A DNA stretch of 64,000 nucleotides from Vulcanimicrobiota bacterium (GTDB lineage: Bacteria; Vulcanimicrobiota; Xenobia; Xenobiales; JADMJV01): positions 124,001-188,000 of the forward strand of contig JAFKGI010000002.1 of the NCBI GenBank assembly GCA_017307785.1. The letters are read 5' to 3'. Numbering within the stretch: the first letter of the stretch is position 1; each line of letters starts with the position of its first letter. The notes beneath the pieces were generated by a model. It saw only the letters and a list, made by a program, of their open reading frames with translations. It was not told the origin of the DNA and did no database searches. This document shows positions 12,801 to 60,671 of the stretch, piece by piece. The translations under genes were made by a program, and so were the position numbers.

Positions 12801-15449
12801 TCCCTGCTGCCGGTCGCCCTCGGGCCGCACCGCCACGACCTCCACCTTGTGAGCCTTACCCGAAGGCCCGAAGGTCGATTCGTTCCGCAAGCCCAACTGA
12901 AACTCACCGCGGTACAGGGGGATCACTTTGCGGCCGGAGAGACTCTGACGGTTCGGCGACGTGGCCGTTCCCTCCACCACCAGGTTGGCGCTGCCGCGGA
13001 AAGGGATTTTCTCCAGAGCGATTTCCTGATCGAGCAGGCCTTTGGCGTCCAGGTCTCCTTTGCCGGAGGTCAACTCCTTGGACTCGTCCTGATGCTCCTC
13101 GTCCCAACTGAGGCCGAAGTCGAAGCCTTCAAAGCCGTCGGGGCGCAATTCGGAAGGCTCCAGACGGGCCGACCAGGTGACCGGGCGGTCATTCATGGGC
13201 GAGCCGAAAAGGTACCAGCCCTTCACTTCCACCTGAGCTTTGTCGCCCATCACGTAGTAAGGCTTGGCGCTGTTGACGGTCACCTCGAACTGGGCCGGCT
13301 TGAAGGCCTCGACCTGGAAGGTGACGGTGCTGAGCGCGTCCGACCACTTCAGGCTCTTTTCCAGCGCTTCAGGAAGCCGATACTCGACACGATAGAGGCC
13401 GGTCACCGAATCGCTCTTCAGGCTCAAGCTCTGGTCGAAACCCCCGAAACGGTTGACGGGAAGCTGCCCTTTGGTCACTTCCCGGTCGCGGCTGTCGAAG
13501 ACCTTGTAAAAGACCTTATCCACTCCGGCCGGCATTTTCCAGGCGCCTTCCGCCATCTCGCGCAGCGACCCCTTGAGCTGGACCGCTTCGCCGGGCTTGT
13601 AGACGCCGCGCTCCGCGAAAGCAAAGGCCTGGAAGTTGCGGGCGTGCTGGTTGCTGCTGTAGTCGAGGTTGAAAGCCCAGGGACCGACGCTGTTGTAGCC
13701 GGCGCTGTGCACATACGATTGGGAGTCGCCGCTTTTGACGAAAACCCACAGATCGGGCGGATTCCACTCGTCGGTCTTGGTCAGACCCAAGGTGCCCCAA
13801 CCCGGGGCCTGGCAGAACCCCTCGCCATCCGCGCTGCCCGACCACAGCTTCTTGCCTTCCGTACTGTACAGCTCGATCTGGGCATTGCCCACCGGCTTCG
13901 CGTCCTTCAAGCTGGTGGTGTAGATCAAGCAATTCTCGGGCGAGAACTTGGCGGTCACGCCCACATCGGTGACGGCCACCAGACTGCGCACGCTCTGACC
14001 GTCGGCGTCCGTCTGCACGTAATAGAAACCACCGCCGGGCAAAGCAACGTCGCGCTGCTGCTCTTCGTTGCGACGCGATACCCCACCTAAGTTCAAGGTC
14101 TTGGTGAAGCCGCCCGGGGGCGTGTAGGGCTCCGAACTGTAGAGAGCCTTGCCCGAGGTCGTCAGGCTGATGACCTGGTCGGGAGTGAGTTTGCTCAATT
14201 TGGCGGTGACCTTGGACATGTTGCGCACGCCATAGGGCAGCTTGCGCGGTCCGTTCAGCTCCAGGACGCCGCTGCCCTCAGGACCTTGCAGCATCTCTCG
14301 ATAGTCCGAAGTGGTCAACTTGAACTCTTTAGAGCCGTTGATCTTGGCGCCGTAGCGATCCACCAGGGCGTCTGCGAACTTCAGAGTGTAAGTGGTATTG
14401 GGCTTGAGCGAGCCTCCCAGGTAGCAGTCGGAGCTGGCATAATCATCCCCGGTCTCGAACTCCGGGAGTTCCACTGGTGGCTCGATGGTCAGATTCTTGC
14501 GCAGCAGTGCCGGCGACACGGGCGTGGTGAACTGAACGTTGATGCCGCCCTCGGGGTCGACCTGGTTCTCGTTCGCCACCAGCGCGAACGGTTTGCGCGT
14601 GGTGAAATCGAAGGAACGCTCGCTGGCGGTGCCTTCGGGGCCTCCCAGGCCCTTGAGCCCGCTGAGTAATAACACCGAGGTCGGTTCGCCAGCCGCCAGA
14701 GGCTTCTCCGGGGTGACCACCACCGCGTTCTCCAGCGGTCCCTCCACCAGACCGTTGGGCCTGGGCAGAGTGTAGGCATCCTGGGCGTCGGCCGCCTTGG
14801 ACTCCGCTTTGCGGTCCTCCTCGGTGTAAGCGCGCACGCTCACGCCCATGGTGTCGCCGCCCTGGCGTAGCTTGATCGAAGAGCGGATGTCTTCCGCCTT
14901 CACGGGCTGATTGAAGTGCAGATAGATGGGCTCATCCACTCCCTGCATCTCGGAGTTTTCCAGCGGCAGGCTGTGGTCCAGGGCGACCGTGGGGGTGACG
15001 AAACTGAAGCTAAAATCTTTGGACAATTGCTGGTCGGCCCAAGATTTCAAGCCTTTTTTTACGTTAACCTGGAAGCGAGTGCCGTAAGGAAGCTGCACTT
15101 TCGGCTCAAAAACCAGTGTAGCCGTGCCTTTCCAACGAAAACGGCCCTCGATCTTGGGCGTAATCTCGACATAATCAACATTTACGTCGGTGGAGACGGG
15201 CTTGAGCGGCACCATAGGTTGATTGAAGGCCATCACGATCGACTGACCCTGGTCCAGGGCGGCCATGTCTCCCTGAGGAGAAGCCAGCACCACTTCGACC
15301 GGTCGTTTTTCCCCCAGAGGCAGAACGTCGAGCAGCTCCTTGGGCAGCTCTTGCTCCAGGTTCCCTCCTCCTCCGGAACGGGTGCATCCCGTAATTCCCA
15401 GAGCTACCAATCCGCAACAGAGTACGGCCAACCGGCGGGGTCGATTCAC
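9810..15449 (-). CDS. Bacterial alpha-2-macroglobulin family lipoprotein (YfhM/MagD-like), thioester absent
   Basis: The protein is about 1879 residues long. It has a lipoprotein signal with lipobox ITGC within the first 22 residues, repeated macroglobulin (MG) beta domains, the A2M core 'GLRSYG...AYWNPSLTSDAQGKA' and 'FKLPDNLTTFKVMALAQT', and a helical TED-like region. The thioester motif CxEQ is missing: the corresponding site near residue 1400 reads 'FYGLEPRLSQIRAG'. It therefore cannot trap proteases covalently and belongs with the thioester-less paralogues. I chose the GTG at 15449 because AGGAG lies six bases before it; the ATG at 15473 lacks a site and would lengthen the N-terminus by eight basic residues. 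It is coupled to pbpC. Confidence 0.9.
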   Translation of the reverse strand: MNRPRRLAVLCCGLVALGITGCTRSGGGGNLEQELPKELLDVLPLGEKRPVEVVLASPQGDMAALDQGQSIVMAFNQPMVPLKPVSTDVNVDYVEITPKIEGRFRWKGTATLVFEPKVQLPYGTRFQVNVKKGLKSWADQQLSKDFSFSFVTPTVALDHSLPLENSEMQGVDEPIYLHFNQPVKAEDIRSSIKLRQGGDTMGVSVRAYTEEDRKAESKAADAQDAYTLPRPNGLVEGPLENAVVVTPEKPLAAGEPTSVLLLSGLKGLGGPEGTASERSFDFTTRKPFALVANENQVDPEGGINVQFTTPVSPALLRKNLTIEPPVELPEFETGDDYASSDCYLGGSLKPNTTYTLKFADALVDRYGAKINGSKEFKLTTSDYREMLQGPEGSGVLELNGPRKLPYGVRNMSKVTAKLSKLTPDQVISLTTSGKALYSSEPYTPPGGFTKTLNLGGVSRRNEEQQRDVALPGGGFYYVQTDADGQSVRSLVAVTDVGVTAKFSPENCLIYTTSLKDAKPVGNAQIELYSTEGKKLWSGSADGEGFCQAPGWGTLGLTKTDEWNPPDLWVFVKSGDSQSYVHSAGYNSVGPWAFNLDYSSNQHARNFQAFAFAERGVYKPGEAVQLKGSLREMAEGAWKMPAGVDKVFYKVFDSRDREVTKGQLPVNRFGGFDQSLSLKSDSVTGLYRVEYRLPEALEKSLKWSDALSTVTFQVEAFKPAQFEVTVNSAKPYYVMGDKAQVEVKGWYLFGSPMNDRPVTWSARLEPSELRPDGFEGFDFGLSWDEEHQDESKELTSGKGDLDAKGLLDQEIALEKIPFRGSANLVVEGTATSPNRQSLSGRKVIPLYRGEFQLGLRNESTFGPSGKAHKVEVVAVRPEGDRQQGVNVKLELLRREWNSVQKGDESGGYRWVSEVKDEKVEEKTLRSSTEPLTEELTPPKAGYYIVRASAQDSRGNAIVSESGFYAEGSDYVAWERAEDDTIQLVSDKKSYKPGDTATILIKSPYEKTRALVTLERDHILDRRVVELTGTAPTIQVPLTSRNLPNVYVSVILLQGRNPKQEFSPDGRDLSKPGFKLGYINLPVAPEEKKLTVKIKTDKEKYQPGDEVVADFVVTDAAGAPVESELTVAVPDQGVLALTGYTLPDWFSSFYGPRPLGVTTCETRMDVIGLRSYGAKGKNAGGGGGFDAAEGRDDFRYTAYWNPSLTSDAQGKAQARFKLPDNLTTFKVMALAQTVNSRFGSAESKFEVAKPLLLQPSVPDFARLKDDFQAGVVVRNNTSNKLSVKVTANPEGIKLDGESSKTVELAAGKEQEVLFHFQADKLGDAKFNFQAQGGEYNDGLTLPLKLQQSVLLEHVSTSGSTAESAAVEMVVPSPMSPGTGMLRLMLSSSALVGLEGPLKELENTVFYGLEPRLSQIRAGIAARDLARALDQARKEDPLQTWVQDTSSFKVGEKGYTYYEGGTADPYLTSYALETFYQARKAGLTVDNGQIDIARAFLKDYLNSPQDYNKWVRPAEARTLRCFALYALSLGEFDGLSYFNNLLRSRSDIPLEGHVYLLMAGRRLGASPADLTLLEQDLTNAAKVEANTVYFEDANEKQSYWTFSSNNKLTALALKALMDSPKGYPQASKVVAWLMEARTKNGDWGDTHDNARVMETLYQYFTTQEKDRPNFEATAFVGKEQVQKVSFLGRELKVDQTTKPIATAVERLAVGLKKVGAGRLYYEMRLSYVAAKEPPARDEGLAVLKKISTVKGDSFPAALTAGQTYMVTLTVVSPQDRRFVMVSDPLPAGCEVVQTQFETESEEMKRILAASQSKSGNSTFVHFEKYSDRVALFADGLQAGEHTFQYMVRANQPGKFAMPATKAEEIYHPEIFGTTTGRVVEIK

Positions 15450-15590
15450 GATTCTCCTCTTTCTCCAGTTCATATGAACTGTTCAACTGCGCCCATCTTA
15501 GTAGGCTCGGATCACTCAGAATAGGATCTAAGTCACAGTTCTGTCGTCTTCGAAAAGATTTGCTTTCACCCCCTCGAAAAAAGCTTCTTA

Positions 15591-44376: not shown

Positions 44377-45849
44377 ATGTCGGAACGACTGAAGCTCTTT
44401 GTCTTCGCCATCATGGCCATAGGCATGTTCATGGCGTTGCTGGACATCCAGATCGTAGCCGCCTCGCTGCCGGAAATTACCTCAGGACTGGCGGCCGGGG
44501 CCGATCAGGGCAGCTGGATTCAAACATCCTACTTAATTGCCGAGATCGTGATGATCCCGCTCTCCGGACTGCTCAGCCAGGCTTTCTCGACGCGCTGGGT
44601 TTTCACCGCCTCGGCCGCGGCCTTCACCGTAGCCAGCGTCGCCTGCGGTTTTGCCAACAGCCTGGAAACGGCCATCTTCTTCCGAGCCGTGCAAGGCTTT
44701 GTGGGCGGAGCCATGATTCCGACGGTCTTCGCCACCGGCTACGCTCTCTTCAAAGGTCCTAAACAGGCGCTCATCCCCGCCATCCTGGGCATGACTTCGA
44801 CGCTGGCACCGGTCATCGGCCCCTCGCTGGGCGGCTGGATCACCGATCTGGCTTCCTGGCGCTGGCTGTTCTTCATCAACGTGGTGCCGGGCATTGCCAT
44901 TACCATCCTGGTGCCTTTGTACGGCAAAATCGACGAGCCGGATCCCGACGCCCTGCGCGGAGTGGACTGGTGGGCCATTCCTTTGATGGCCCTGTTCCTG
45001 GGCGGCTTGATTTACGTGCTCGAGGAAGGCCCCCGCTACGACTGGTTCAACGATCCTACCAACTACCAGGTGGCCTGGGCCTCCGCGCTCAGCGGTGTGG
45101 CCTTTCTTTATCGCAGCCTCACCCATCCACGACCGGTGGTGAACCTGTCGATCTTCAAGAAACGTCGCTTTGCGCTAGGTTCGGTTTTCCTCTGGGTCAC
45201 CGGCGCCGGCATCTTCACGGCCATCTACCTGATTCCCCAGTTTCTCGCATCCATCCGCCACTTCCGCAGTCTGGAAATCGGCAAAGCGGTGGCCGTGACC
45301 GGCTTCGCTCAGTTCTTTGCCACCCCCATCGCGGCCCGCATGTCGCAAAAGCTGGATGCTCGCGCCATGTTGGTCTTCGGTTTCCTGCTGTTCGCCAGCT
45401 CGACTTACGTCAGCGTGGGCATCACCTCCGAGTGGGGCGGCCCCGAATTCCTCTGGCCCCAAGTGCTGCGAGGATTCTCGCTGATGTTCTGCATCGTGCC
45501 GGCCACCAACATGTGCCTGGGCTCGGTCCCACCCGAACAACTCAAAGCCGCCAGCGGACTGTCGAATCTGATGCGCAACCTGGGCGGAGCGGTAGGCATC
45601 GCGGTCGCCAACACCGTTCTCAACGACCGCTACCGACTGCATTTCGCGCGCCTGAGCGAACACCTGACCCATCAGGTTCTCGACCGCTATGGTTTCTCGC
45701 GGGTCATGTCCTTGCTCAACCGCGAGGCGCACACGCTGGCCTTTGCCGACAGCTTTCTACTGCTGGGCGCGCTCTTTGTGGGTTCGTTGGTCTTACTGCC
45801 GCTCTCTCCGCCCATCCCGCCCACCGCCGTAAAGACGGCTGAACACTAG
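44377..45849 (+). CDS. DHA2/EmrB-type MFS drug efflux transporter
   Basis: The 490-residue protein has about 14 TM segments and the family motifs 'FMALLDIQIVAASLPEI' (motif D1), 'SYLIAEIVMIPLSGLLSQAF', 'FFRAVQGFVGGAMIPT' (motif B) and 'GPSLGGWITDLASWRWLFFINV' (motif C). It exports drugs or detergents with the adaptor and TolC protein encoded just upstream. It starts one base after the adaptor stop. Its stop lies in CTAG shared with the convergent GST gene. Confidence 0.94.
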   Translation: MSERLKLFVFAIMAIGMFMALLDIQIVAASLPEITSGLAAGADQGSWIQTSYLIAEIVMIPLSGLLSQAFSTRWVFTASAAAFTVASVACGFANSLETAIFFRAVQGFVGGAMIPTVFATGYALFKGPKQALIPAILGMTSTLAPVIGPSLGGWITDLASWRWLFFINVVPGIAITILVPLYGKIDEPDPDALRGVDWWAIPLMALFLGGLIYVLEEGPRYDWFNDPTNYQVAWASALSGVAFLYRSLTHPRPVVNLSIFKKRRFALGSVFLWVTGAGIFTAIYLIPQFLASIRHFRSLEIGKAVAVTGFAQFFATPIAARMSQKLDARAMLVFGFLLFASSTYVSVGITSEWGGPEFLWPQVLRGFSLMFCIVPATNMCLGSVPPEQLKAASGLSNLMRNLGGAVGIAVANTVLNDRYRLHFARLSEHLTHQVLDRYGFSRVMSLLNREAHTLAFADSFLLLGALFVGSLVLLPLSPPIPPTAVKTAEH

Positions 45850-46514
45850 CTGAATCGGGTATTGGGACCGCCTTTGGCGATCGCTCGTTGGTAGGCCGGT
45901 CGCCCCTCCATGCGCTTGAGCAGGGCGCCGAGGCGCGGGCAACTTTCCTGCAGACGCAAGCTGTTGTAGCCGGCCTCCAGCGGAAAGCTCATCTGAATGT
46001 CGGCGGCCGTCAATTGCTCGCCGGCCAGCCAGCTGCTCTGAGCCAGTTCGGCCTCGATATAGGCGAAGGCCCGCTGCAGGTCAGCATCCGCGATGCGCTG
46101 GCGCAGCTTGTGAAACAGCGGTTTGAACAGCCACTTCAGGAAAAAGGGAGCGCGCCGCGGCACCATGTTGAAAATCAATGAAATCAACAGCGGCGGCATG
46201 AGCGATCCCTCGGCATAGTGGAGCCAAAAATTATAGCGAATGCGTTCGGGAGTTCCAGGAGCGGGCCGAAAACGGCCTTCTCCATAGGTGTCGAGCAAAT
46301 ACTCCAGGATGGCTCCTGACTCGGCCAGCACCAGTTCGCCATCGGTCAACACCGGCGATTTTCCCAACGGATGCACCTGCTTGAGAGTATCCGGAGCTCG
46401 CAAAGTCTGAGGATGCCGCTTGTAGTGGCGAATCTCATAAGGCAGCTCGAGCTCCTCCAGCAGCCAGAGAATGCGATGGGAGCGGGAGTTGTTGAGGTGG
46501 TGGACGATCAACAT
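45846..46514 (-). CDS. Glutathione S-transferase-family protein
   Basis: The 222-residue product has an N-terminal thioredoxin-like domain ('LNNSRSHRILWLLEELELPYEI', cis-Pro in 'GKSPVLTDG', 'LAESGAILEYLLDTY') and a helical C-terminal domain ('QSSWLAGEQLTAADIQMSFPLE'). It resembles the bacterial GSTs that begin with an Asn/Ser catalytic loop. Whether the organism makes glutathione is unknown. It lies two bases downstream of the PD40 lipoprotein gene's stop on the other side of the pair and converges with the efflux operon. Confidence 0.9.
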   Translation of the reverse strand: MLIVHHLNNSRSHRILWLLEELELPYEIRHYKRHPQTLRAPDTLKQVHPLGKSPVLTDGELVLAESGAILEYLLDTYGEGRFRPAPGTPERIRYNFWLHYAEGSLMPPLLISLIFNMVPRRAPFFLKWLFKPLFHKLRQRIADADLQRAFAYIEAELAQSSWLAGEQLTAADIQMSFPLEAGYNSLRLQESCPRLGALLKRMEGRPAYQRAIAKGGPNTRFS

Positions 46515-46515
46515 T

Positions 46516-47568
46516 TCATAAGTTCTGAAGAGCGCTGGCCAATTCCAGCATCAAAATGCCGCGAGGCGACCCGGAACTGCTGCTCTGCAGAGCAGTCAAA
46601 ACGACCCGCGTTCCACCGTGAGAAAACTCGGCGTGCTGGCCATCCAGTGCATCCGGAGTCAGCTGGAGCAACGACCCACCGAGGTCGGAAGCCTGTCCAC
46701 TGAAGCGCTTGGCAAAGATGGCATACTGACCGCTGGCGCTGGCGCGATTGGACTCGAATAGAATCACGCTTCCATCCGGCGACCAGGCCGGCGCTCTCCC
46801 CTGGCCACCGTCGAACAGAATCGGAGCGGTATTCTTGGTGGCCTGCAAATCGATCACGAAGATGTTGTTGGTGTCCTGATTGTAGGGAGCATTGACGTCC
46901 GCTTGGGCCGCCAACACCAGCCAGCGGCCGTCCGGGGAGACCGAAGAGTCACCGGCCAGCAGGACAGACGGATCGGTCAGGTTGGTGCTGCTCTTCTGGT
47001 CGACGTTGACTTTGCGCACGATCCCCTTGGAAGCCGTCAAACCGCCGTTCCCGTAATCCGTGGCGGCCACGCTGATCCCGTCCGGAAACCAGTGCGGATA
47101 GTCGACCTGCTTGCTGAAGGCGGAGTTGGTCACCTGAAAAACATTGCTGCCGTCCGGGTTGCACACCCAAAGAGTGCCACCCGCGGAATTCTCGGCGGTG
47201 AAAGCGATGCGATTGGTGGCCACCGACCAGTCCGGCCGGGTGCTGTTCTGCCCAAAGCCGCTGAGCAAGAAGCTCACCGTGCCACCACTGGAATTCACTT
47301 TGTGCAACCGAACCTGAGCGTTGCCCACCGTGTTGCGCTCGAACACGATGGTCCCATCATCCGGCGAGAAGGTAGGGCGATAGTCGTTGAACTGCGGGTC
47401 ATTGGTGACCCAGCGCGTCGTGATCAAGCCACTGGGTGGCTGGACGATTCGGCTCAGTTGGGTGGTGGGACTTCCAGAAGGCCCGGCCGGGTTACCGCCC
47501 AGGAACTCATCGTTGCTTTCACCACATCCGATGAACAACAGGGCTAAAGCCCAAACAAACTTACGCAA
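46516..47568 (-). CDS. TolB-like PD40 beta-propeller lipoprotein
   Basis: The 350-residue product has a lipoprotein signal (lipobox FIGC at about 12-15) followed by PD40/WD40-like repeats: 'RPTFSPDDGTIVFER', 'RPDWSVATNRIAFTA', 'SSVSPDGRWLVLAA', 'APAWSPDGSVILFES'. Such propellers are periplasmic binding platforms. There is no TolB N-terminal domain and no Pal nearby, so it is TolB-like only. The start is TTG, with GGGAGGG in the end of the upstream gene. Confidence 0.8.
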   Translation of the reverse strand: MRKFVWALALLFIGCGESNDEFLGGNPAGPSGSPTTQLSRIVQPPSGLITTRWVTNDPQFNDYRPTFSPDDGTIVFERNTVGNAQVRLHKVNSSGGTVSFLLSGFGQNSTRPDWSVATNRIAFTAENSAGGTLWVCNPDGSNVFQVTNSAFSKQVDYPHWFPDGISVAATDYGNGGLTASKGIVRKVNVDQKSSTNLTDPSVLLAGDSSVSPDGRWLVLAAQADVNAPYNQDTNNIFVIDLQATKNTAPILFDGGQGRAPAWSPDGSVILFESNRASASGQYAIFAKRFSGQASDLGGSLLQLTPDALDGQHAEFSHGGTRVVLTALQSSSSGSPRGILMLELASALQNL

Positions 47569-47569
47569 A

Positions 47570-49315
47570 CTACGATTCCCTCCCGTATATCAAAGCCATC
47601 GAGTCGATGGTGTCACCCAGGCTCACTGTGCCCCCGGTGCGATCGTGAATCCCGCGGCTGGGCACGAAATAGACGGTGGAGCCTCGGCCATCGTCGAAAT
47701 ACCAATCCTTGGCCACCTGGTCTCGCTGGGTGTCACTCAACTGATAGCGTCCTTGGACGGCGTCAGCGAATTTCTGCACCGAGGCCAAACAGGCCCCTTC
47801 GACAACCGGAAGCACCGGCCAGAGTTCCTGGTCAGCCTTCTTGATTTCGCCGCTCGGGTTGGTCGCCTTCATCGCCGCCACCTGGCGAGCGCGCATCAGG
47901 GCCAGAACGTTTCGCTCCGGGTCTTTGGGCGTGGGGCAGACCAGCAGGTCGCCGTGCAGACCGTGGAAGTGAAGACGCTTCAATCCCATCGCTTCTTTCA
48001 GCTCCAGAGCATTTTCCAGCAGATGCGGCGGATGTTCCATGACTTCGCGGCTGGCGGTCGAGGCGGGTCCGCAATAGTTCGGATTCAGGCGCTCCAGCAG
48101 GGCCGGAACCTCCACGCTGTTGAGCGAGAGCGAGTCGACCTGACTCTTCAGACGATTCATGACTTCGGCCTCATGGGCGGGGTCCTTGGGGGCGACGTAT
48201 TGCAGATGGAAAGTGGCCTTCGGGTTGGCGAACTTCATAATGGCCAGTTGATTGGCCAGGTCGGTGGCGCGCGCGGGATCGCCCTTGGTGAGGTAGTGAC
48301 TGCCGGCGAAAAACAGCAGGTCTTTGCCCTCGATGGTTTTGGCCAGCACCTCGGCGCTGGCCTTACCAAATCCGATCTCCTGGCCTCCAGGAGTGCTGAG
48401 AATGACGCGCCCACTGGCGGGGGCCACGGAATCGCCAATCTGCGTGCCCTTGCGATACTCGGCGATATAGTTGACCCGGTCTTTCTGGGCGGGGTCGACC
48501 GCCTCATCGGCCCGGCGTTGCCGACCTTGATCATCGTAGATGACGACCTCGGGATTCAATCCGGCCGAAACCTTGGGCGGTAGGCCCCCCAAATTCCAAA
48601 AAGACGACTGAACGTTCTCGATGGCGGCCGCCGCGTTGGCGCAAAATCCACCGGCACCTCCCATGGCCTCTTTGACGTCCGCTCCCATGCTCTGCAGCGA
48701 TTGGGCCAGCCAGGGTCCACTGTGGTCATCCAGGTTGATCTGCAGCGAGGCCCCGTCCCCGTGAGCCAGATGCTGGCGTAGCTTGTCGACCAGCTGCCCG
48801 CAGGACTTCTCTGGATCGGCCCGTCGCTGCAACTGTTCGAGCATGTCGCCCTGAATCTCCAACTTGGCGTCGGTCAGACGGGTAAAGCCGAAAAGTCCGG
48901 CCTGGGGAACGGCCTGCATTTCTTGGGCAGCCTGGGAACGATCAATGGCCCGGACCATATCGGCTGCAGTAACACGCGGGTCGTCCTGCTGAGCCAGCTC
49001 CAATTCGCGAGCGGCCAGCCCTCCCAGCGGAGTATCCTCGTGCAGACCCCGATCGCTGAGATGGCGGGCCACCTCCCGACTGGGGGCGTCGTCCCAGCCC
49101 AGTTGGGAAAGGGTCAGTGAAACGGGCGTGCCGCCCAGCGGAATCCGGGTGGTCAATCCCTGCTTCATCAGGCTTTTGAGACAAGGCTTCGGGGCGGAGA
49201 CCGAACCGAGCTGGCAGGCATCTTGAGGCTCAGAAGAGTGAGGAGCGTCGGCGGCTGGTCGAGCGGCAGGTTGGCGAATCAGCGGTTTGCTGGGGGAGAA
49301 TCCTTGAATCTGCAT
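47570..49315 (-). CDS. ADP-dependent phosphofructokinase/glucokinase-like protein with disordered leader
   Basis: The 581-residue protein has a Pro/Ala/Ser-rich first 45 residues with DACQLG at 32-37. The body shows ADP-PFK/GK family landmarks in order: 'MGGAGGFCANAA' at 218-229 (family GG-A-x-x-x-A-N), 'VNYIAEYRKGT' at 281-291, 'DLLFFAGSHYLT', 'SLSLNSVEVPALL' with the NxxE metal motif Asn399/Glu402, 'LKRLHFHGLHGDLLV', and C-terminal 'GTVSLGDTIDS' with the catalytic Asp568. The usual G-x-G-D reads S-L-G-D. ADP-dependent kinases are common in archaea and rare in bacteria. The substrate is unknown, and loss of activity is possible. Confidence 0.68.
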   Translation of the reverse strand: MQIQGFSPSKPLIRQPAARPAADAPHSSEPQDACQLGSVSAPKPCLKSLMKQGLTTRIPLGGTPVSLTLSQLGWDDAPSREVARHLSDRGLHEDTPLGGLAARELELAQQDDPRVTAADMVRAIDRSQAAQEMQAVPQAGLFGFTRLTDAKLEIQGDMLEQLQRRADPEKSCGQLVDKLRQHLAHGDGASLQINLDDHSGPWLAQSLQSMGADVKEAMGGAGGFCANAAAAIENVQSSFWNLGGLPPKVSAGLNPEVVIYDDQGRQRRADEAVDPAQKDRVNYIAEYRKGTQIGDSVAPASGRVILSTPGGQEIGFGKASAEVLAKTIEGKDLLFFAGSHYLTKGDPARATDLANQLAIMKFANPKATFHLQYVAPKDPAHEAEVMNRLKSQVDSLSLNSVEVPALLERLNPNYCGPASTASREVMEHPPHLLENALELKEAMGLKRLHFHGLHGDLLVCPTPKDPERNVLALMRARQVAAMKATNPSGEIKKADQELWPVLPVVEGACLASVQKFADAVQGRYQLSDTQRDQVAKDWYFDDGRGSTVYFVPSRGIHDRTGGTVSLGDTIDSMALIYGRES

Positions 49316-49395
49316 GAGCCGAAGAAGTTCGCAGTTCGGGCAGGGCCGGCCTGCGAATTTTGGATGTTTTTTAGGACCTCAGGATAGTCTGGGGT

Positions 49396-50472
49396 ATGTT
49401 GATTCGGAGCACACCTCAACGCCCCCGTCTCGACGACCCGGCCGAAAACAGAGCCGGGCGTTCGAAGGGAATCTCCTGGGGAACCGTCGGCCTTGGAGTC
49501 GTCGGGATTGCCGGTGCCTGCGGGCCGGCCGCCGCCCAGGTTCAAGTCACCCCGCAACCCGAGGAGCCGATCCGGCTCAACCTGGTCGACCAGGTTCGTT
49601 TGAGCCACCAGGAGCCCGCTCAGTGGAGCGTCTCCGCCTCTCAGCAGAACGACAGTATGCCGGGCTGGTTGGAGTGGGTGCCCACCAACGACGCCAACCG
49701 CATTCCCGGGAAACGCCAGTTTGACGACAATGGTTGGACGGCCGAGGTGCGTTTGCAAGCCACCCGCACGCAGGGAGATGAACAGTGGACGGGCGGCGTC
49801 CGCTACTCGATGCTGACCCAGCGCGGCTCCTGGGCCCCGGCCGCTCCCGAGTATCGGGGATACCGCACGGATCTGGGAGAAGTCGTGGTTCAACACAACC
49901 AGCGAGTCGAGTTGGGCAATGGCTCCACTCTTTACTACGGCGTAGGCGGTGGCGTGCAGGCCATCGGCGACCTGGGCGGGCACAGGGTGCAGGAGCAGTT
50001 TCACATTCACGGTGGATTTGGCGGACGCACCGGCTCCGCTTTGCAGACCAACAATACCACTCCCGGAACGGCCACCGTCACCCCCCTGGTGACGGCGGGA
50101 GTGCGCCTGGACCAGCCACTGCAGTTGCGTGACTGGAGCCTGCGCAGCTCTCTTTACAGTTCCGTAGCCCTGGGCCAGGGCATGTCCTCGCTCCAGGGGC
50201 AAATGGGCTTGAATTATCAGGCCTCCTCGCGGCTCAACGTGGAAGGCGGCGTGATGGCGGCCGGAGTCTACTCCAACCACCCGGCCATGGATTTTCTGCA
50301 TCAGAACGGTGTGCGTCCCGGCGCCTATGTGGAAAGCAACTATCAGGTGAGCAAGCACGTGCGCGCTTTCGGACGGGTTCAGACGGGTGGAATTCAGGGC
50401 GAACCGGTCTACACCATAGGCTTTGCGATCGGCGGCGGCCCGGGTCCGTGGATTAGTCCGGGGTTCAATTAA
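49396..50472 (+). CDS. Exported outer-membrane beta-barrel protein, possibly LpxR-like
   Basis: The 358-residue product has an unusually long basic N-terminal region before a hydrophobic signal (about 28-48, cleavage after AAA-Q). A barrel of about 12 alternating strands follows. 'WSVSASQQNDSMPGW' places an Asn-Asp pair near the mature N-terminus, as in the lipid A deacylase LpxR, and 'VVVQHNQRVELG' supplies a His. The similarity is weak, so I only suggest it. It is divergent from the ADP-kinase-like gene. Confidence 0.62.
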   Translation: MLIRSTPQRPRLDDPAENRAGRSKGISWGTVGLGVVGIAGACGPAAAQVQVTPQPEEPIRLNLVDQVRLSHQEPAQWSVSASQQNDSMPGWLEWVPTNDANRIPGKRQFDDNGWTAEVRLQATRTQGDEQWTGGVRYSMLTQRGSWAPAAPEYRGYRTDLGEVVVQHNQRVELGNGSTLYYGVGGGVQAIGDLGGHRVQEQFHIHGGFGGRTGSALQTNNTTPGTATVTPLVTAGVRLDQPLQLRDWSLRSSLYSSVALGQGMSSLQGQMGLNYQASSRLNVEGGVMAAGVYSNHPAMDFLHQNGVRPGAYVESNYQVSKHVRAFGRVQTGGIQGEPVYTIGFAIGGGPGPWISPGFN

Positions 50473-50536: not shown

Positions 50537-53500
50537 ATGAGTCAGCTGGAATCGGAAGCTGTACAGGCGTTGCGGAAGCGTTTGCAGCAGTTGGTGGACA
50601 AGTTGGCCCAGGTGGACCGGCGTCTGGAGGGCTGCGAGGACTCGATCCGGCCCAAATTGCTCGATTTGCGTGCCCAGGTCACGGCCGCCATCGAGCAGAC
50701 GGAAGCCAGAATTGGAGCCGAAACTCCTCAGGAGGACACCCGCGACCAGCAGATCGCGGCCCTCCAGGCCGAACTGGCGGAGGCCCAGGGGCAGCTCGAA
50801 ACATCCCGCAAAGAGCTGAGTGCCAAGACGGTGGAACTGCGCATCCTCAAAAAGCGCGATACCGGAAAAGTGGAATCCGCCGAAGACCCGGAGCTCAAGG
50901 GGCAGTTGGAGGCGGCTCGCAAAGAGCTGGAAGATACGCAAGAACAGTTGAAAGGCGCTCTCGACAAGCTCTCCATTAGCCGGGAAGAGAACCTGGAGTT
51001 GGGCGAGGTGCTGGCCGGCAAGGACGATGAGCTGGAGCAGGAGCAACAGGCGCTCCGAGAGCTGCAGGTCCGACTGAGCGAAGAACTGGCGCGAAAATCG
51101 GAGGATTGGGAGCAACAGCACCAGTCCCTCAAGCGCACAATCGAAAATCTGACCAAAAGCCTCGATACCAGTCAGGATGAAATTCGCGAACTGGAAGAAG
51201 CCCACGCGCTCAAGGACGAGGAGCATCAGGAAGCTCTGACCGAATTGGAATCTCGGTTGGCGAGCGGCGAGGCGGCTCGGGAAGAAAAATCGGCCGCCCA
51301 CCTGGAGCAAAAGCAAAGCGAGATCGCCGAAAAAGAACTGGCTCTCGAGCAAAGCCAGGCCAGAGTGCGGGAGTTGGAAGAAGCCCAGGCCCTGCAAGAG
51401 CAGTCCCTGGCCCGAGCTCGTGAATCGGAGTCCGAGCAAGGCCAGGCGCTGGAGCAAAGCCAGGCCAGGGTCCGCGAACTCGAAGAGTCCCAGTCCGAAC
51501 AAGGAGCGGCCCTGGAGCAAAGTCAGGCCAGGGTCCGCGAACTCGAGGAGTCCCAGTCGGAACAAGGCACGACTCTGGAGCAAAGCCAGGCCCGCTTCCG
51601 TGAACTCGAGGAGTCTCAGGCGGAACAAGGAGCGGCTCTGGAGCAAAGTCAGGCCCGCGTCCGCGAACTCGTGGAGTCCCAGTCGGAAAAAGAAGCGGCT
51701 CTGGAGCAAAGCCAGGCCCGCGTCCGCGAACTCGAGGAGTCCCAGTCGGAACAAGGAGCGGCTCTGGAGCAAAGCCAGGCCCGCGTCCGCGAACTCGAGG
51801 AGTCCCAGTCGGAACAGGCCCAGGCCCTGGAGCAAAGCCAGGCCCGCGTCCGCGAACTCGAGGAGTCCCAATCGGAACAAGGAGCGGCTCTGGAGCAAAG
51901 CCAGGCCCGCGTCCGCGAACTCGAGGAGTCTCACTCGGAACAGACCCAGGCCCTGGAGCAAAGCCAGGCCCGCGTCCGCGAACTCGAAGAGTCTCAGGCG
52001 GAACAGGGCGGAGCTCTGGAGCAAAGTAAGGCCCTGGTCCGCGAACTCGAGCAGCAGGTGAGCGACAGCCTGGCGGAGCACGAGCAATCGGCGGCCGAGA
52101 AAGGGCAGCGACTCGACGAACTCTCCGCCGTCCTTGCCCAAAAAGACGACGAGCTCCAGCAGCAGCATTCGCGCGTAACCGCCCTGGAAGAAGAACTGGC
52201 CTCCAAAACGCAAGAACTGGCCGATTTGAGCGAGGCCAACGCACTGCAAGACCAGCAATTGCTGCAGGTGACTCAGCAGACCAGCGACAGCCAACAGGCA
52301 CTCGAGCGGGAGCGCCAGAGCGTAGCCGAACTGCAACAACGCACAGAGCTGCAAGAGCAGCAGTTGAGCGACCTGGAAGCGACTCTCTCCAGCCAACAGG
52401 ACGAGCGGCTCGAACTGGACCAGCAGCTGGCCTTTGCCAACGACCAGCGCGAGCAGCTCATCGAGAGCGAGCAGGCGCTGGCCTCCGCCATTCTGGCTCG
52501 AGACCGGCAGGTCGAGGAAATGCGCCTGGAGGTCGAGTCCCGCCAACAGAAGCTGCTGGAAAAAACTCGCCAACTCGAAGACCTGAGCGCCATTCTGGAA
52601 AGCACTCAGCAAAGCGGAGAGGAGCTGGCTCAGACCCTGACCGAGCGCGAGAGCCAGCTGGCGGAAGCGCGCCTGGAAATCGAAGCGAGCCAGCAACAAC
52701 TGACGGAAAACCTCCAGCGACTGGAAGACCTCGGCGCCACCTTGGAAAGCAGTCAGCAAGGCGCGGACGACCTGGCTCAGGCCCTGACCGAGCGGGAGAG
52801 CCAGTTGGTGGAAGTGCAATCCGATCTCGAGACCGCCCGCCAACAGCTTTCCGACGCACATCGCCAGCTGGACGAAGTCGGACAGACTCTGGAAGGCGCC
52901 CAGCAGGGGGCCGCCGAGCTAGCTGAGGCCCTGACCGACCGGGAAAGTCAGCTGGTCGAGCTCCAGGCGCAGTTGGCAGAGCGCTCCCAGCAACTGGAAG
53001 AAGCGCAACGCGGCCTGGATTCGGCTCAAGAACAGGGGCTGGAGTTGGCCGAAGCCATCGAGCGCAAAGAAGCGACGGCGGCCGAATTGCATCAACGAAT
53101 CCAGGGACTGCAGGCACGCCTGGATACGGAACAGGCTCAGGTTTTTCAGCTGTCTGAGCAAGTTTCCATTCAGGAAGAAGGCCTGGTGGATATCCAACTG
53201 CGCCTGGTGACCTCCCAGGACGAAGTCACCGAGCTACAGGAAAACGTGATTGCCACCACCGAGAAACTGGGCCGAAGCGAAAAACACGCCCAGGCTCTCG
53301 AGCAAGAACTGGCTTCCACTCAGGCTGAGTTGCGCATCCAAATTCAGGGCCGCCAAGAAGAAGTGGCCCAAACTCAGAAAGCGATCGCCGAGCTGCACGC
53401 CCAGGCCAACTCCGCCCTCAACGACCGGCGCGTACTGGCCGAGACCATGGAACAAAAGGAAAAAGAAATCCAGCACTGGCAGAAAGAGCACGAAGAACTC

Positions 53501-53569
53501 AATCAGGCCGTGCGTCGCCTGGAAAAGGCCAATCAGCAGCTGCGCCTGTCCAAACGCACCGGCAAATAA
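50537..53569 (+). CDS. Giant coiled-coil protein with two classes of internal repeats
   Basis: The 1010-residue protein is coiled coil almost throughout, dominated by Glu, Gln, Leu, Ser and Ala with few aromatics or prolines. Residues about 304-492 are nine tandem 21-residue units (three heptads), and about 652-840 are 49-residue units (seven heptads). There is no signal peptide or TM helix. An N-terminal ~60 residues ('VQALRKRLQQLVDKLAQVDRRLEGCED' in parts) could be an independent helical domain. Length-changing heptad arrays suggest a ruler, spacer or filament. I recognise no SMC or other ATPase head. Confidence 0.8.
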   Translation: MSQLESEAVQALRKRLQQLVDKLAQVDRRLEGCEDSIRPKLLDLRAQVTAAIEQTEARIGAETPQEDTRDQQIAALQAELAEAQGQLETSRKELSAKTVELRILKKRDTGKVESAEDPELKGQLEAARKELEDTQEQLKGALDKLSISREENLELGEVLAGKDDELEQEQQALRELQVRLSEELARKSEDWEQQHQSLKRTIENLTKSLDTSQDEIRELEEAHALKDEEHQEALTELESRLASGEAAREEKSAAHLEQKQSEIAEKELALEQSQARVRELEEAQALQEQSLARARESESEQGQALEQSQARVRELEESQSEQGAALEQSQARVRELEESQSEQGTTLEQSQARFRELEESQAEQGAALEQSQARVRELVESQSEKEAALEQSQARVRELEESQSEQGAALEQSQARVRELEESQSEQAQALEQSQARVRELEESQSEQGAALEQSQARVRELEESHSEQTQALEQSQARVRELEESQAEQGGALEQSKALVRELEQQVSDSLAEHEQSAAEKGQRLDELSAVLAQKDDELQQQHSRVTALEEELASKTQELADLSEANALQDQQLLQVTQQTSDSQQALERERQSVAELQQRTELQEQQLSDLEATLSSQQDERLELDQQLAFANDQREQLIESEQALASAILARDRQVEEMRLEVESRQQKLLEKTRQLEDLSAILESTQQSGEELAQTLTERESQLAEARLEIEASQQQLTENLQRLEDLGATLESSQQGADDLAQALTERESQLVEVQSDLETARQQLSDAHRQLDEVGQTLEGAQQGAAELAEALTDRESQLVELQAQLAERSQQLEEAQRGLDSAQEQGLELAEAIERKEATAAELHQRIQGLQARLDTEQAQVFQLSEQVSIQEEGLVDIQLRLVTSQDEVTELQENVIATTEKLGRSEKHAQALEQELASTQAELRIQIQGRQEEVAQTQKAIAELHAQANSALNDRRVLAETMEQKEKEIQHWQKEHEELNQAVRRLEKANQQLRLSKRTGK
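51446..52012 (+). repeat. Nine tandem 63-bp repeats encoding 21-residue coiled-coil units
   Basis: Nine units of exactly 63 bases, each coding for a variant of 'ALEQSQARVRELEESQSEQGA', are in register (51446 to 51950 in 63-base steps). A degenerate unit follows at 52013 and a related, longer one precedes near 51344. The close match at third codon positions suggests recent expansion. Confidence 0.95.
52490..53056 (+). repeat. Four 147-bp repeats encoding 49-residue coiled-coil units
   Basis: The segment 'LTERESQL' and its relatives recur at 52490 (diverged), 52637, 52784 and 52931, exactly 147 bases apart. The last unit is 126 bases, shorter by one heptad. The copies are more diverged than the 63-bp array, so this duplication is older. 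Confidence 0.85.
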
Positions 53570-57327: not shown

Positions 57328-58815
57328 TTGCAGCCCATCCTACGCCTCACGGACATCACGCGCAGCTTCCCCGGGGTGAAAGCCCTGGCCGGTGTCACGC
57401 TGGATCTGCAGCCCGGCGAAGTGCACGCCCTGATGGGCGAGAATGGCGCCGGCAAGTCCACCCTGATGCGCGTCATCGGCGGCATACTCGCTCCCGACTC
57501 GGGACAGATGACACTGCGAGGCCAACCCTATCGACCGCGCTCCCCGCGCGACTCCAAAGCGGCCGGCATCGCCTTCATCCAGCAGGAGCTCACCCTGGTA
57601 CCGGAGCTCAGCGTGGCCGAGAATCTGCAGTTGGGCCGGATGCCGCATCGCCTGGGCTGGCTGAACCGAAGCGAGCTGAAACGCCGAGCTCGGGCCGCTC
57701 TCGATTTTCTAGAAATCGAACTGCCTCTCGATCAGCCGGCCCGCACCCTCAACGTGGGTCAGGGCCAAATGCTGGAAATCGCTCGAGCCCTGCAAGATCA
57801 GGCCGATGTGCTGATTATGGACGAACCGACCGCCGCTCTCTCCCAAAAAGAGGCGGAGCATCTCTTCTCCGCCATTCGCCGTCTGCGCGCTCAGGGCTCG
57901 GCCATCATCTACATCTCTCATCGGATGGAAGAGGTCTACGAACTTTCCGACCGCCTCAGCGTGCTGCGCGACGGTGCCACCACCGGCACCTGGAGTATGG
58001 GCGAGATCACTCCCACGCAGGTGGTGGCTCAGATGGTCGGACGCGAAATCCAAGAGCAGGCGAGCGCCCCTCGAGGGAAGCGCGGAGAGACCGTGCTGGC
58101 GGTCCGAAACCTGACTCGGGGGCCGCTGGTGCAGAATGTCAGCTTCGAGGTGAAGGCGGGGGAAGTGGTCGGCCTGGCCGGCCTGGTGGGAGCCGGTCGC
58201 ACCGAAATCGCCCGCCTCCTGGCGGGCGCCGACCGTCTGCAGTCTGGAGAAATTCAGATGCTGGGCCGGGCCGTGCATCTGACCTCTCCGGCCGCGGCCA
58301 TCGCCCATGGAGTCGGCCTGGTGCCCGAGGACCGCAAGCACCAGGGTCTGGTATTGGGCATGAGCGTGCAGGACAATGTCAGCTTCACCGTCCTCAAAGA
58401 GCTGGCTCAGCTGGGCTGGCTTTCCCGAGAAAAATGCCGGAGTCTGGCCGACCGCTATATTCAGGAAATGCGCATCCGCACGCCTTCCCGAGAGCAAGCA
58501 GTGGGCACTCTCTCCGGCGGCAATCAACAAAAAGTGGTGATAGGGAAATGGCTGGCACGCGACTGTCGCCTGCTGCTCCTGGATGAACCGACGCGGGGGG
58601 TGGATGTGGGGGCCAAAGCCGAAATTTATCGTCTGATTGAGCAACAGGTGGCGGCGGGCAAAGCCGTGTTGCTGATCTCCTCGGAACTGCCGGAGCTTCT
58701 GCGCCTTTCGTGTCGCGTGCTGGTGATCTCGGGTGGCCGCCTGGTCGCCGAGTATTCCCGGGAAGAGGCAACGCAGGAGAAAATTCTGGCCAGCGCGCTG
58801 GCGGGGTTGGCGTGA
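57328..58815 (+). CDS. Sugar ABC transporter ATP-binding protein (RbsA/CUT2 type)
   Basis: The 495-residue protein has two ABC domains. The first has Walker A 'GENGAGKST' (about 38-46), signature 'LNVGQGQMLEIARAL' and Walker B 'VLIMDEPTAAL'. The second has the degenerate 'GLVGAGRTE' typical of RbsA, a full signature 'LSGGNQQKVVIGKWLA' and 'LLLLDEPTRGVDVG'. It energises uptake of a pentose or cyclitol such as ribose, xylose or myo-inositol. The start is a TTG at 57328. Its stop overlaps the permease fusion as GTGA. Confidence 0.93.
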   Translation: MQPILRLTDITRSFPGVKALAGVTLDLQPGEVHALMGENGAGKSTLMRVIGGILAPDSGQMTLRGQPYRPRSPRDSKAAGIAFIQQELTLVPELSVAENLQLGRMPHRLGWLNRSELKRRARAALDFLEIELPLDQPARTLNVGQGQMLEIARALQDQADVLIMDEPTAALSQKEAEHLFSAIRRLRAQGSAIIYISHRMEEVYELSDRLSVLRDGATTGTWSMGEITPTQVVAQMVGREIQEQASAPRGKRGETVLAVRNLTRGPLVQNVSFEVKAGEVVGLAGLVGAGRTEIARLLAGADRLQSGEIQMLGRAVHLTSPAAAIAHGVGLVPEDRKHQGLVLGMSVQDNVSFTVLKELAQLGWLSREKCRSLADRYIQEMRIRTPSREQAVGTLSGGNQQKVVIGKWLARDCRLLLLDEPTRGVDVGAKAEIYRLIEQQVAAGKAVLLISSELPELLRLSCRVLVISGGRLVAEYSREEATQEKILASALAGLA

Positions 58816-60671
58816 AGGGTCCGGCCATCGCCTTCCTCTGCTTGAGCGCCCTGCTCAGCCTGCTCACGCCCGACTTCCTGCAGACCACCAACCTGACCAA
58901 TGTGCTGCTTCAGTCCGCCATTAACGGCGTGTTGGCGGCCGGCATGACCTTCGTCATTCTCACTGGCGGCATCGACCTGGCGGTAGGCTCGGTGCTGGCC
59001 CTCTCGGGCATGGTGCTGGGCAAGTTGCTGCTGGGCGGGCTGGCGGTTCCGCTGACGATCCTGGCCTCGCTGCTGGTAGCCTCCTTCCTAGGACTGCTCA
59101 GCGGTCTGATGGTGACGCGCGGAAAACTGCCTCCTTTCATCGCCACTCTGGGCATGATGAGCGCGGCGCGAGGCCTGGCGCTGGTCTATTCAGGGGGACG
59201 ACCGGCCAGCGGATTCTCCCCAGGATTTCTCAGTCTGGCCGAGGGGCCTGTGCTGGTGGGCCTGATGGCTCTGGTCTACCTGATGGCGGGACTGGCGCTG
59301 CAACGCACGGTTTATGGACGCTCTATCTATGCGCTGGGCGGCAACGAACAGGCTGCCTGGCTTTCGGGTTTACCCACCGAACGCCTCAAGTGCAGCGTCT
59401 ACGTGCTCTCCGGCTTCCTGGCGGGAGTGGCCGCCATCATGCTCACGGCCCGCCTCAATTCGGCCCAGCCCATTGCCGGCGTGATGTATGAACTGGATGC
59501 CATCGCGGCCGTGGTCATGGGAGGCACCTCTCTGACGGGCGGTCAGGGCGGAGTGATGGGCACGCTTTTCGGGGCCCTGATTATGGGCGTGCTGCGCAAC
59601 GGCCTGAATCTGCTGGAAGTCTCCGCCGACATGCAGCAAGTGGTCATCGGAGTGGTGATCGTGCTGGCCGTGCTGGTGGACCGCTCCCGGGAACAGATCT
59701 CTCGCTCCCTCAACCTCCAACTGCGCCAACACCCTCGGAGATCGGGAACGCTGGCCACCGCCACGGTGGTGCTGATCATCCTGGGCGCCACTTCGTACCG
59801 CACCTCCCACCAGAAATCCGGGCCGGTCGTGGCCTTTGTCATGAAAACCAAGAACAACCCGTTCTGGGTCGACATGGAAGAAGCCGCTCAGAAATCGGCC
59901 CGGGCGGCTGGAGTGCGCCTGATCGTGCAGGCCCCCGAACGCGAAACCGACGTGGAAAAGCAGATGCAGATCGTGGAGAATCTGATTCAAAAGCGGGTCA
60001 GCGCACTAGTTCTGGCTCCTTGCGGGTCCAAAGAAATCGTGCCGGCCATTCTCAAAGCCAATCAAGCCGGCATTCCGGTGCTGATCGTGGATACTCGGGT
60101 GGACGAAAAGACCCTCAAGCAGGCCGGCGCCCGCACAGAAACCTTCATCGGGTCCGATAATTATCACGGCGGCGAACTGGCCGGAGAATTCATGAGCCAG
60201 ACCCTCAAGGACCACGGCCGGGTCATCATCCTGGAGGGAATCGCAGGTCACGAAACCGTGGACGCGCGCCGCCGAGGTTTTGTGGAGGCGCTCAAGACTC
60301 ACCCCGGCGTTCAGGTAGCCGCTTCTCAGACAGCCAATGCCGAGCAAGAGAAAGCTTTCAACGTCACCCAGAATCTATTGCAGTCCAATCCGGACATTCA
60401 GGGCATCTTCGGTTGCAACGACGTGATGGCGTTGGGGGCCATGGCGGCCTGCAAGTCCATGAACCGCAAAGACATCGTCATCGTGGGCTTCGACGCCTCC
60501 GCTCCCGGTCGCCAGGCCATTCAAGAGGGGTCGATGGCCGGCTCGGTAGCACAATATCCCGGCGAAATGGGACGTCTGGGAGTCGAGAAAGCGCTGGCCG
60601 TGCTGAAGGGCGAAAAACTGCCTGATTATCTGCCCACCAAGGTAGACGTTGTCTCCGCTTCAGTCCGTTAG
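58812..60671 (+). CDS. Sugar ABC permease fused to its substrate-binding protein (RbsC-RbsB fusion)
   Basis: The 619-residue protein joins two normally separate CUT2 components. Residues 1-305 are the permease, with about 9-10 TM helices and 'ILTGGIDLAVGSVLALSGM', 'YGRSIYALGGNEQAA' and 'DAIAAVVMGGTSLTGGQGG'. A further hydrophobic segment (about 316-333) carries the chain outside. Residues about 340-619 are a type I sugar-binding protein: 'VVAFVMKTKNNPFWVDMEEAA', 'IPVLIVDTRVD', 'FGCNDVMALGAM', 'IVGFDA'. There is no stop or frameshift at the junction. The binding domain would stay tethered to the pore. The end overlaps the convergent gene by 12 bases. Confidence 0.92.
   Translation: MKGPAIAFLCLSALLSLLTPDFLQTTNLTNVLLQSAINGVLAAGMTFVILTGGIDLAVGSVLALSGMVLGKLLLGGLAVPLTILASLLVASFLGLLSGLMVTRGKLPPFIATLGMMSAARGLALVYSGGRPASGFSPGFLSLAEGPVLVGLMALVYLMAGLALQRTVYGRSIYALGGNEQAAWLSGLPTERLKCSVYVLSGFLAGVAAIMLTARLNSAQPIAGVMYELDAIAAVVMGGTSLTGGQGGVMGTLFGALIMGVLRNGLNLLEVSADMQQVVIGVVIVLAVLVDRSREQISRSLNLQLRQHPRRSGTLATATVVLIILGATSYRTSHQKSGPVVAFVMKTKNNPFWVDMEEAAQKSARAAGVRLIVQAPERETDVEKQMQIVENLIQKRVSALVLAPCGSKEIVPAILKANQAGIPVLIVDTRVDEKTLKQAGARTETFIGSDNYHGGELAGEFMSQTLKDHGRVIILEGIAGHETVDARRRGFVEALKTHPGVQVAASQTANAEQEKAFNVTQNLLQSNPDIQGIFGCNDVMALGAMAACKSMNRKDIVIVGFDASAPGRQAIQEGSMAGSVAQYPGEMGRLGVEKALAVLKGEKLPDYLPTKVDVVSASVR

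Follow-up and report, generated by a model that had tools for sequence, protein, structure and literature searches.

Two acceptors have been described for the ADP-dependent sugar kinases, namely glucose and fructose 6-phosphate (F6P), and in the known enzymes the acceptor hydroxyl is activated by Asp471, the transferred phosphate is contacted by Arg206, and Mg is held through water by the Glu residues of the HXE and NXXE motifs (passages of PMC7948494). Both Glu residues are called essential for ADP-Mg binding in the available text of PMC6028617, and replacement of Arg206 with Ala lowered specific activity about 600-thousand-fold (PMC7948494, same passages). For the acceptor, Asn181 and Lys179 are conserved in phosphofructokinases and bifunctional enzymes, and a Glu is conserved in glucokinases and bifunctional enzymes (as excerpted from PMC7948494). 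ADP-dependent kinases have also been reported in bacteria (PMC7948494, in the portion consulted), so that bacterial family members as such are not new, and the available text of PMC7304191 states that no evidence of PF04587 was found in candidate-phyla-radiation bacteria. Among the literature matches listed, we recognized none on the lineage described here or on its altered motifs.

The window, a stretch of 64,000 nucleotides, lies on a contig of 373.5 kb in a bacterial genome of 7.65 Mb that is 97.5% complete and 6.1% contaminated. Reading of its open reading frames gave a 581-amino-acid frame on the minus strand with an ATG start, the product of which we call P0001 (Table 1). A promoter scan of positions 45700 to 49600 found no sigma-70-like promoter and is uninformative, as 0.6 sites were expected by chance.

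Table 1. Features of the P0001 reading frame, in window positions
Feature	Positions	Strand	Size or basis
ORF, protein P0001, PF04587 (ADP_PFK_GK)	47570..49315	-	581 aa
Residues 1-45, leader, low conservation, probably disordered	49181..49315	-	Identity, dN/dS
Residues 46-141, N-terminal extension, conserved, beyond PF04587 match	48893..49180	-	No Pfam match (E up to 1)
Residues 142-151, FGFTRLTDAK, vs family AYNxNxDAI sugar-binding motif	48863..48892	-	L-INS-i only
Residues 218-227, MGGAGGFCAN; family MGGQAGI, Gln -> Ala221	48635..48664	-	Alignment
Residues 280-288, RVNYIAEYR; Arg280 and Asn282 at F6P-phosphate positions K179 and N181	48452..48478	-	Alignment
Arg303, counterpart of catalytic Arg206	48407..48409	-	Alignment; role per PMC7948494 (passages)
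Residues 370-372, HLQ in place of Mg-binding HXE	48200..48208	-	Alignment
Residues 399-402, NSVE, NXXE motif	48110..48121	-	Alignment
Residues 565-568, SLGD in place of GXGD; D568 at catalytic-base position	47612..47623	-	Alignment

Family membership and distribution

P0001 was originally predicted, from the window alone, to be a relative of the ADP-dependent phosphofructokinases and glucokinases, and a search with the PF04587 model bore this out: the protein scored 86.1 bits (E 2.6e-24) against a curated cut-off of 27. PF04587 was the sole Pfam family to match up to an E value of 1, and because it did so far above its cut-off, there is no better family match, the finding that would have spoken against the prediction. 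Open frames for orthologs were present in two other genomes at 83% and 57% identity, and both products also exceeded the cut-off (96.0 and 56.2 bits). Profile comparison by hhalign of the ortholog trio against seven known enzymes gave a probability of 98.6 and an E value of 9.7e-16 over residues 156 to 580, and among NCBIfam models an ADP-specific glucokinase model matched weakly (40.1 bits; cut-off 554). The best solved structures found by phmmer were the Pyrococcus furiosus ADP-glucokinase 1ua4, at 1e-7, and 6c8z, an ancestral ADP-phosphofructokinase, at 1.2e-7, near-equal scores that favor neither the glucokinase nor the phosphofructokinase branch. An AlphaFold model built from two input sequences (P0001 and the 83% ortholog, L004) reached a mean pLDDT of 36.4 and a pTM of 0.28, too low for a usable structure. 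Of the 66 columns without variation among the known enzymes (six or more of the seven having a letter), P0001 retains just 30, which might suggest an unrelated ribokinase-like or other protein wrongly assigned to PF04587, an explanation that we consider highly improbable and that the Pfam result, shared by both orthologs, brings close to refuted. We conclude that P0001 is, as judged by sequence, a far-diverged bacterial relative of archaeal ADP-using sugar-phosphorylating enzymes.

A 10-row tree of the kinase core, from which eukaryotic ADPGK was left out, separated the bacterial trio from the seven known enzymes by a fully supported branch. Changes per column on either side of the root were 3.11 and 1.42, with a midpoint root placed for drawing and with the trio and ancMT unlike in composition. 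The distance to the archaeal enzymes compared bears on whether bacteria acquired the gene from archaea or retain an old branch of the family.

The original prediction also held such kinases to be rare in bacteria, which was true of the one phylum to which our search extends: PF04587 matched 3 of 149 genomes, that of the window included. The same three were found when P0001 was used as the query against 58 genomes, the other two being G002 (83% identity) and G006 (57%), the latter from another family of the same order. PF04587 had no match in G001 (82% complete), G003, or G004, all within the genus, or in G005. A scan of genome contigs with patterns made from one sequence, and so able to pick up only close relatives, recovered L004, probably the same record as the G002 match and counted with it once. 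No relatives were found among viral contigs, searched with two degenerate patterns, or among plasmids and phages.

Catalytic, metal, and acceptor positions

Much of the predicted catalytic apparatus was present in the alignment. Asn399 and Glu402 align with the NXXE motif, the VSLGD of residues 564 to 568 aligns with GXGD and supplies Asp568 at the position of the catalytic base, and the catalytic Arg has its counterpart in Arg303. Within GXGD the Asp and the second Gly are retained; at the first position, where every one of the seven known enzymes has Gly, the three orthologs all have Ser. The HXE motif reads His370-Leu-Gln372, again in all three orthologs, at a position that is Glu in all seven known enzymes, eukaryotic ADPGK being outside the comparison. 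The statement that the family's blocks are kept was thus correct for NXXE, the catalytic Asp, and the SLGD variant, and it passed over the change of HXE to HLQ and the alteration of much of the sugar pocket. An earlier study reportedly addressed, to go by its title, the NXXE and HXE motifs of the Thermococcus litoralis glucokinase. The Gln of HXQ could still hold a Mg-bound water, and weak or altered metal use is therefore as plausible as none.

To place the acceptor site, the contacts listed for AncMsPFK (6c8z, 6xio), a reconstructed Methanosarcinales ancestor, in the available text of PMC7948494 were mapped to P0001 through an L-INS-i alignment, with seven archaeal or ancestral enzymes as the comparison set. 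P0001 and AncMsPFK share the core alignment, the catalytic Asp and Arg, the NXXE Glu, the GG of the lid loop (Gly219-Gly220), a ribose-contact His (His451, for His360), and the counterpart of Asn181 (Asn282); Gly567, Val564, Ala484, Glu286, and Thr563 are among the other residues kept. In contrast to the ancestor, P0001 has HXQ for HXE, SXGD for GXGD, Arg280 for Lys179, Ala221 for Gln116, Thr145 and Leu147 for Asn32 and Asn34, and about 140 extra N-terminal residues, and Arg212, the thirty-fifth position, falls in a gap. The Asn32, Asn34, and Asp36 positions were mapped via the P. horikoshii phosphofructokinase by L-INS-i only: that alignment sets TRLTD against NxNxD with the Asp kept (Asp149 for Asp36), E-INS-i aligns the region elsewhere, and hhalign does not cover it. 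Together with Ser190 for Glu90 and with Phe224, Thr308, Tyr341, Tyr373, Val374, Gly452, and His557, these substitutions bring to 14 of 34 the mapped contact positions at which P0001 has a residue seen in none of the seven.

The bifunctional ADP-phosphofructokinase/glucokinase of Methanocaldococcus jannaschii (5od2) has the family and core motifs in common with P0001, which shows relative to it the identical list of changes. The P. furiosus glucokinase, about as close by phmmer as the phosphofructokinase, shares NXXE with its Asn, and the P. horikoshii glucokinase (1l2l, 5o0i) has, like P0001 and unlike AncMsPFK, a His at the Gln244 position (His340 in P0001). In both glucokinases, however, the His at the Asn181 position and the Glu at the Glu90 position correspond to Asn282 and Ser190 of P0001, so neither glucokinase determinant was found. 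Of the phosphofructokinase set Lys179, Asn181, and Arg212, the Asn alone is kept, with Arg in place of the Lys. With Asn and Arg where the F6P phosphate would be contacted, and with neither the Glu nor the His of glucokinases present, P0001 may use an anionic acceptor rather than glucose. Moreover, a canonical ADP-glucokinase or ADP-phosphofructokinase is less likely than the original prediction implied, because the HXE Glu, the first GXGD Gly, the GGQ Gln, and, if L-INS-i is right, two NxNxD Asn residues have changed. We conclude that the P0001 pocket is, by alignment, only partly phosphofructokinase-like.

The altered pocket was conserved among the orthologs. All but one of the 34 mapped positions (the exception being Leu453) are invariant in the three orthologs, against a background of 248 of 436 positions over residues 142 to 577 (hypergeometric 5e-8), a test that, given the closeness of two of these orthologs to each other, amounts to effectively one comparison at 55% identity. 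An earlier, hand-picked list of 26 positions, all 26 of them invariant, is superseded by the list of 34. Contact positions tend to be conserved in any enzyme. The pocket looks maintained, not decaying, and the conservation test speaks for upkeep, not for catalysis.

Selection, the N-terminal extension, and candidate functions

The ORF is under purifying selection. Comparison with L004 gave an overall dN/dS of 0.074 (pS 0.67, with dS near saturation), made up of 0.053 for residues 142 to 581, 0.08 for residues 46 to 141, and 0.38 for residues 1 to 45, and comparison with the distant ortholog, L003, gave 0.294 with dS saturated. Residues 1 to 45 are 22% identical to L003 and 49% to L004, and residues 46 to 141 are 44% and 78% identical. 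The ATG starts of the orthologs were chosen by us, the ORF list placing them at upstream TTG codons, and with these starts all three orthologs begin Met-Gln. The dN/dS pattern and the shared Met-Gln starts indicate a short leader and, after it, an extension in which about 95 residues form a conserved stretch. The disordered leader of the original prediction is therefore apt for about residues 1 to 45, which look like one, and not for residues 46 to 141, which are conserved. The extension matched no Pfam family up to an E value of 1, and a search of seven genomes for a second copy found none that was convincing, the best match besides the three orthologs having an E value of 0.05.

Such an extension could serve for output or partner contact if P0001 were a noncatalytic pseudokinase, a sensor or regulator with a nucleotide or sugar phosphate as its ligand. 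All three orthologs have lost the HXE Glu and the first GXGD Gly, which is in keeping with a sensor, as are the additional conserved N-terminal region and the patchy presence of the gene (3 of 149 genomes). A pure sensor, however, need not keep the catalytic base Asp568 and the catalytic Arg303, and P0001 retains both. We regard the sensor as rather unlikely, although it is the main rival of the explanation that we prefer, an altered phosphotransferase.

By the preferred explanation, to which we give about an even chance, P0001 would be a deep-branching bacterial member of the family, an altered Mg-nucleotide phosphotransferase whose acceptor would differ from the known ones and would likely be anionic. 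The Mg-nucleotide, ADP by family descent, would be bound in the cleft between the large and lid domains, and its terminal phosphate would be passed to an acceptor other than glucose, with Asp568 serving as the base and Arg303 stabilizing the transferred group. The acceptor would probably be negatively charged and read by Arg280, Asn282, and His340. We count for a phosphotransferase the retention of Asp568, Arg303, and NXXE, the near invariance of the mapped contacts, and the low dN/dS of residues 142 to 581, and we count against it Gln372, Ser565, the 14 contact positions with residues unseen in the comparison set, and the lack of a conserved gene partner. We infer the fold details, nucleotide, acceptor, and activity of P0001 from its sequence.

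A broader and more tentative proposal, which we put at somewhat below an even chance, is that the trio may represent a bacterial lineage apart from the known archaeal enzymes, with a rebuilt Mg site (HXQ, SXGD) and sugar pocket, an acceptor new to the family, and a family-specific N-terminal domain. A maintained bacterial branch with a substitution at one "essential" Glu would show how strongly the chemistry relies on that residue and whether the ADP-kinase family has a third acceptor.

Genomic surroundings and glycolytic genes

Downstream of the kinase gene in the window lie a PD40 propeller gene, whose product begins like a lipoprotein as judged by eye, and then a glutathione S-transferase (GST) gene. 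In L004, GST directly follows the kinase gene, and in G006 the neighboring genes encode a protein kinase, a nucleotidyltransferase-like protein, and, in a large ORF judged by eye, a xanthine dehydrogenase-like protein. We rejected an operon logic, as the window order of kinase, PD40, and GST is not kept in L004, G003, or G006, and because gene order is not kept, the pathway cannot be read from the neighbors. Separately, in G003 (L021, 10041 to 11757) the PD40 propeller and GST genes are adjacent as in the window with no kinase gene found beside them, so that members of a single genus differ in whether the kinase gene stands at a comparable place.

A PF02685 glucokinase and a ROK kinase were sought and not found in the genome of the window, G002, and G006; of the 18 genomes of the class, none has PF02685 and 7 have ROK. 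Together with PF04587 membership, this could indicate that P0001 has the ordinary specificity of an ADP-dependent glucokinase or phosphofructokinase, acts in glycolysis, and fills the missing glucokinase step. PF02685 and ROK were likewise not found, however, in G001 (82% complete), G003, or G005, all of which lack an ADP-kinase relative, and so the absence of glucokinase is not tied to the P0001 gene. Complementation of a missing glucokinase is thereby weakened, hexokinase and other such enzymes lying outside the search. Moreover, the genome of the window already has two genes of the PF00365 phosphofructokinase family, P0001 has neither the His nor the Glu of the glucose site, and Gln116, Arg212, and the two NxNxD Asn residues (by L-INS-i) are not kept. 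We consider an enzyme of ordinary specificity improbable.

Several other features of the window were observed. A divergently transcribed ORF of 358 amino acids at 49396 to 50472 had no Pfam match up to an E value of 1 and is kept in G002, G004, and G005 at 77, 49, and 36% identity, the latter two genomes being without the kinase relative. A coiled-coil-like ORF of 1010 amino acids (50537 to 53569, plus strand) contains a tandem array at 51445 to 52051 with a 63-base unit in 9.6 copies and 88% matches, and a second array, of period 147 and 2.7 copies, lies at 52562 to 52956. A single ORF at 58710 to 60671 combines an ABC permease domain (PF02653) with a sugar-type periplasmic binding domain (PF13407). 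At 7566 to 15473, a bacterial alpha-2-macroglobulin gene (1887 amino acids) adjoins a transglycosylase/transpeptidase gene (747 amino acids), the usual pairing of these two genes.
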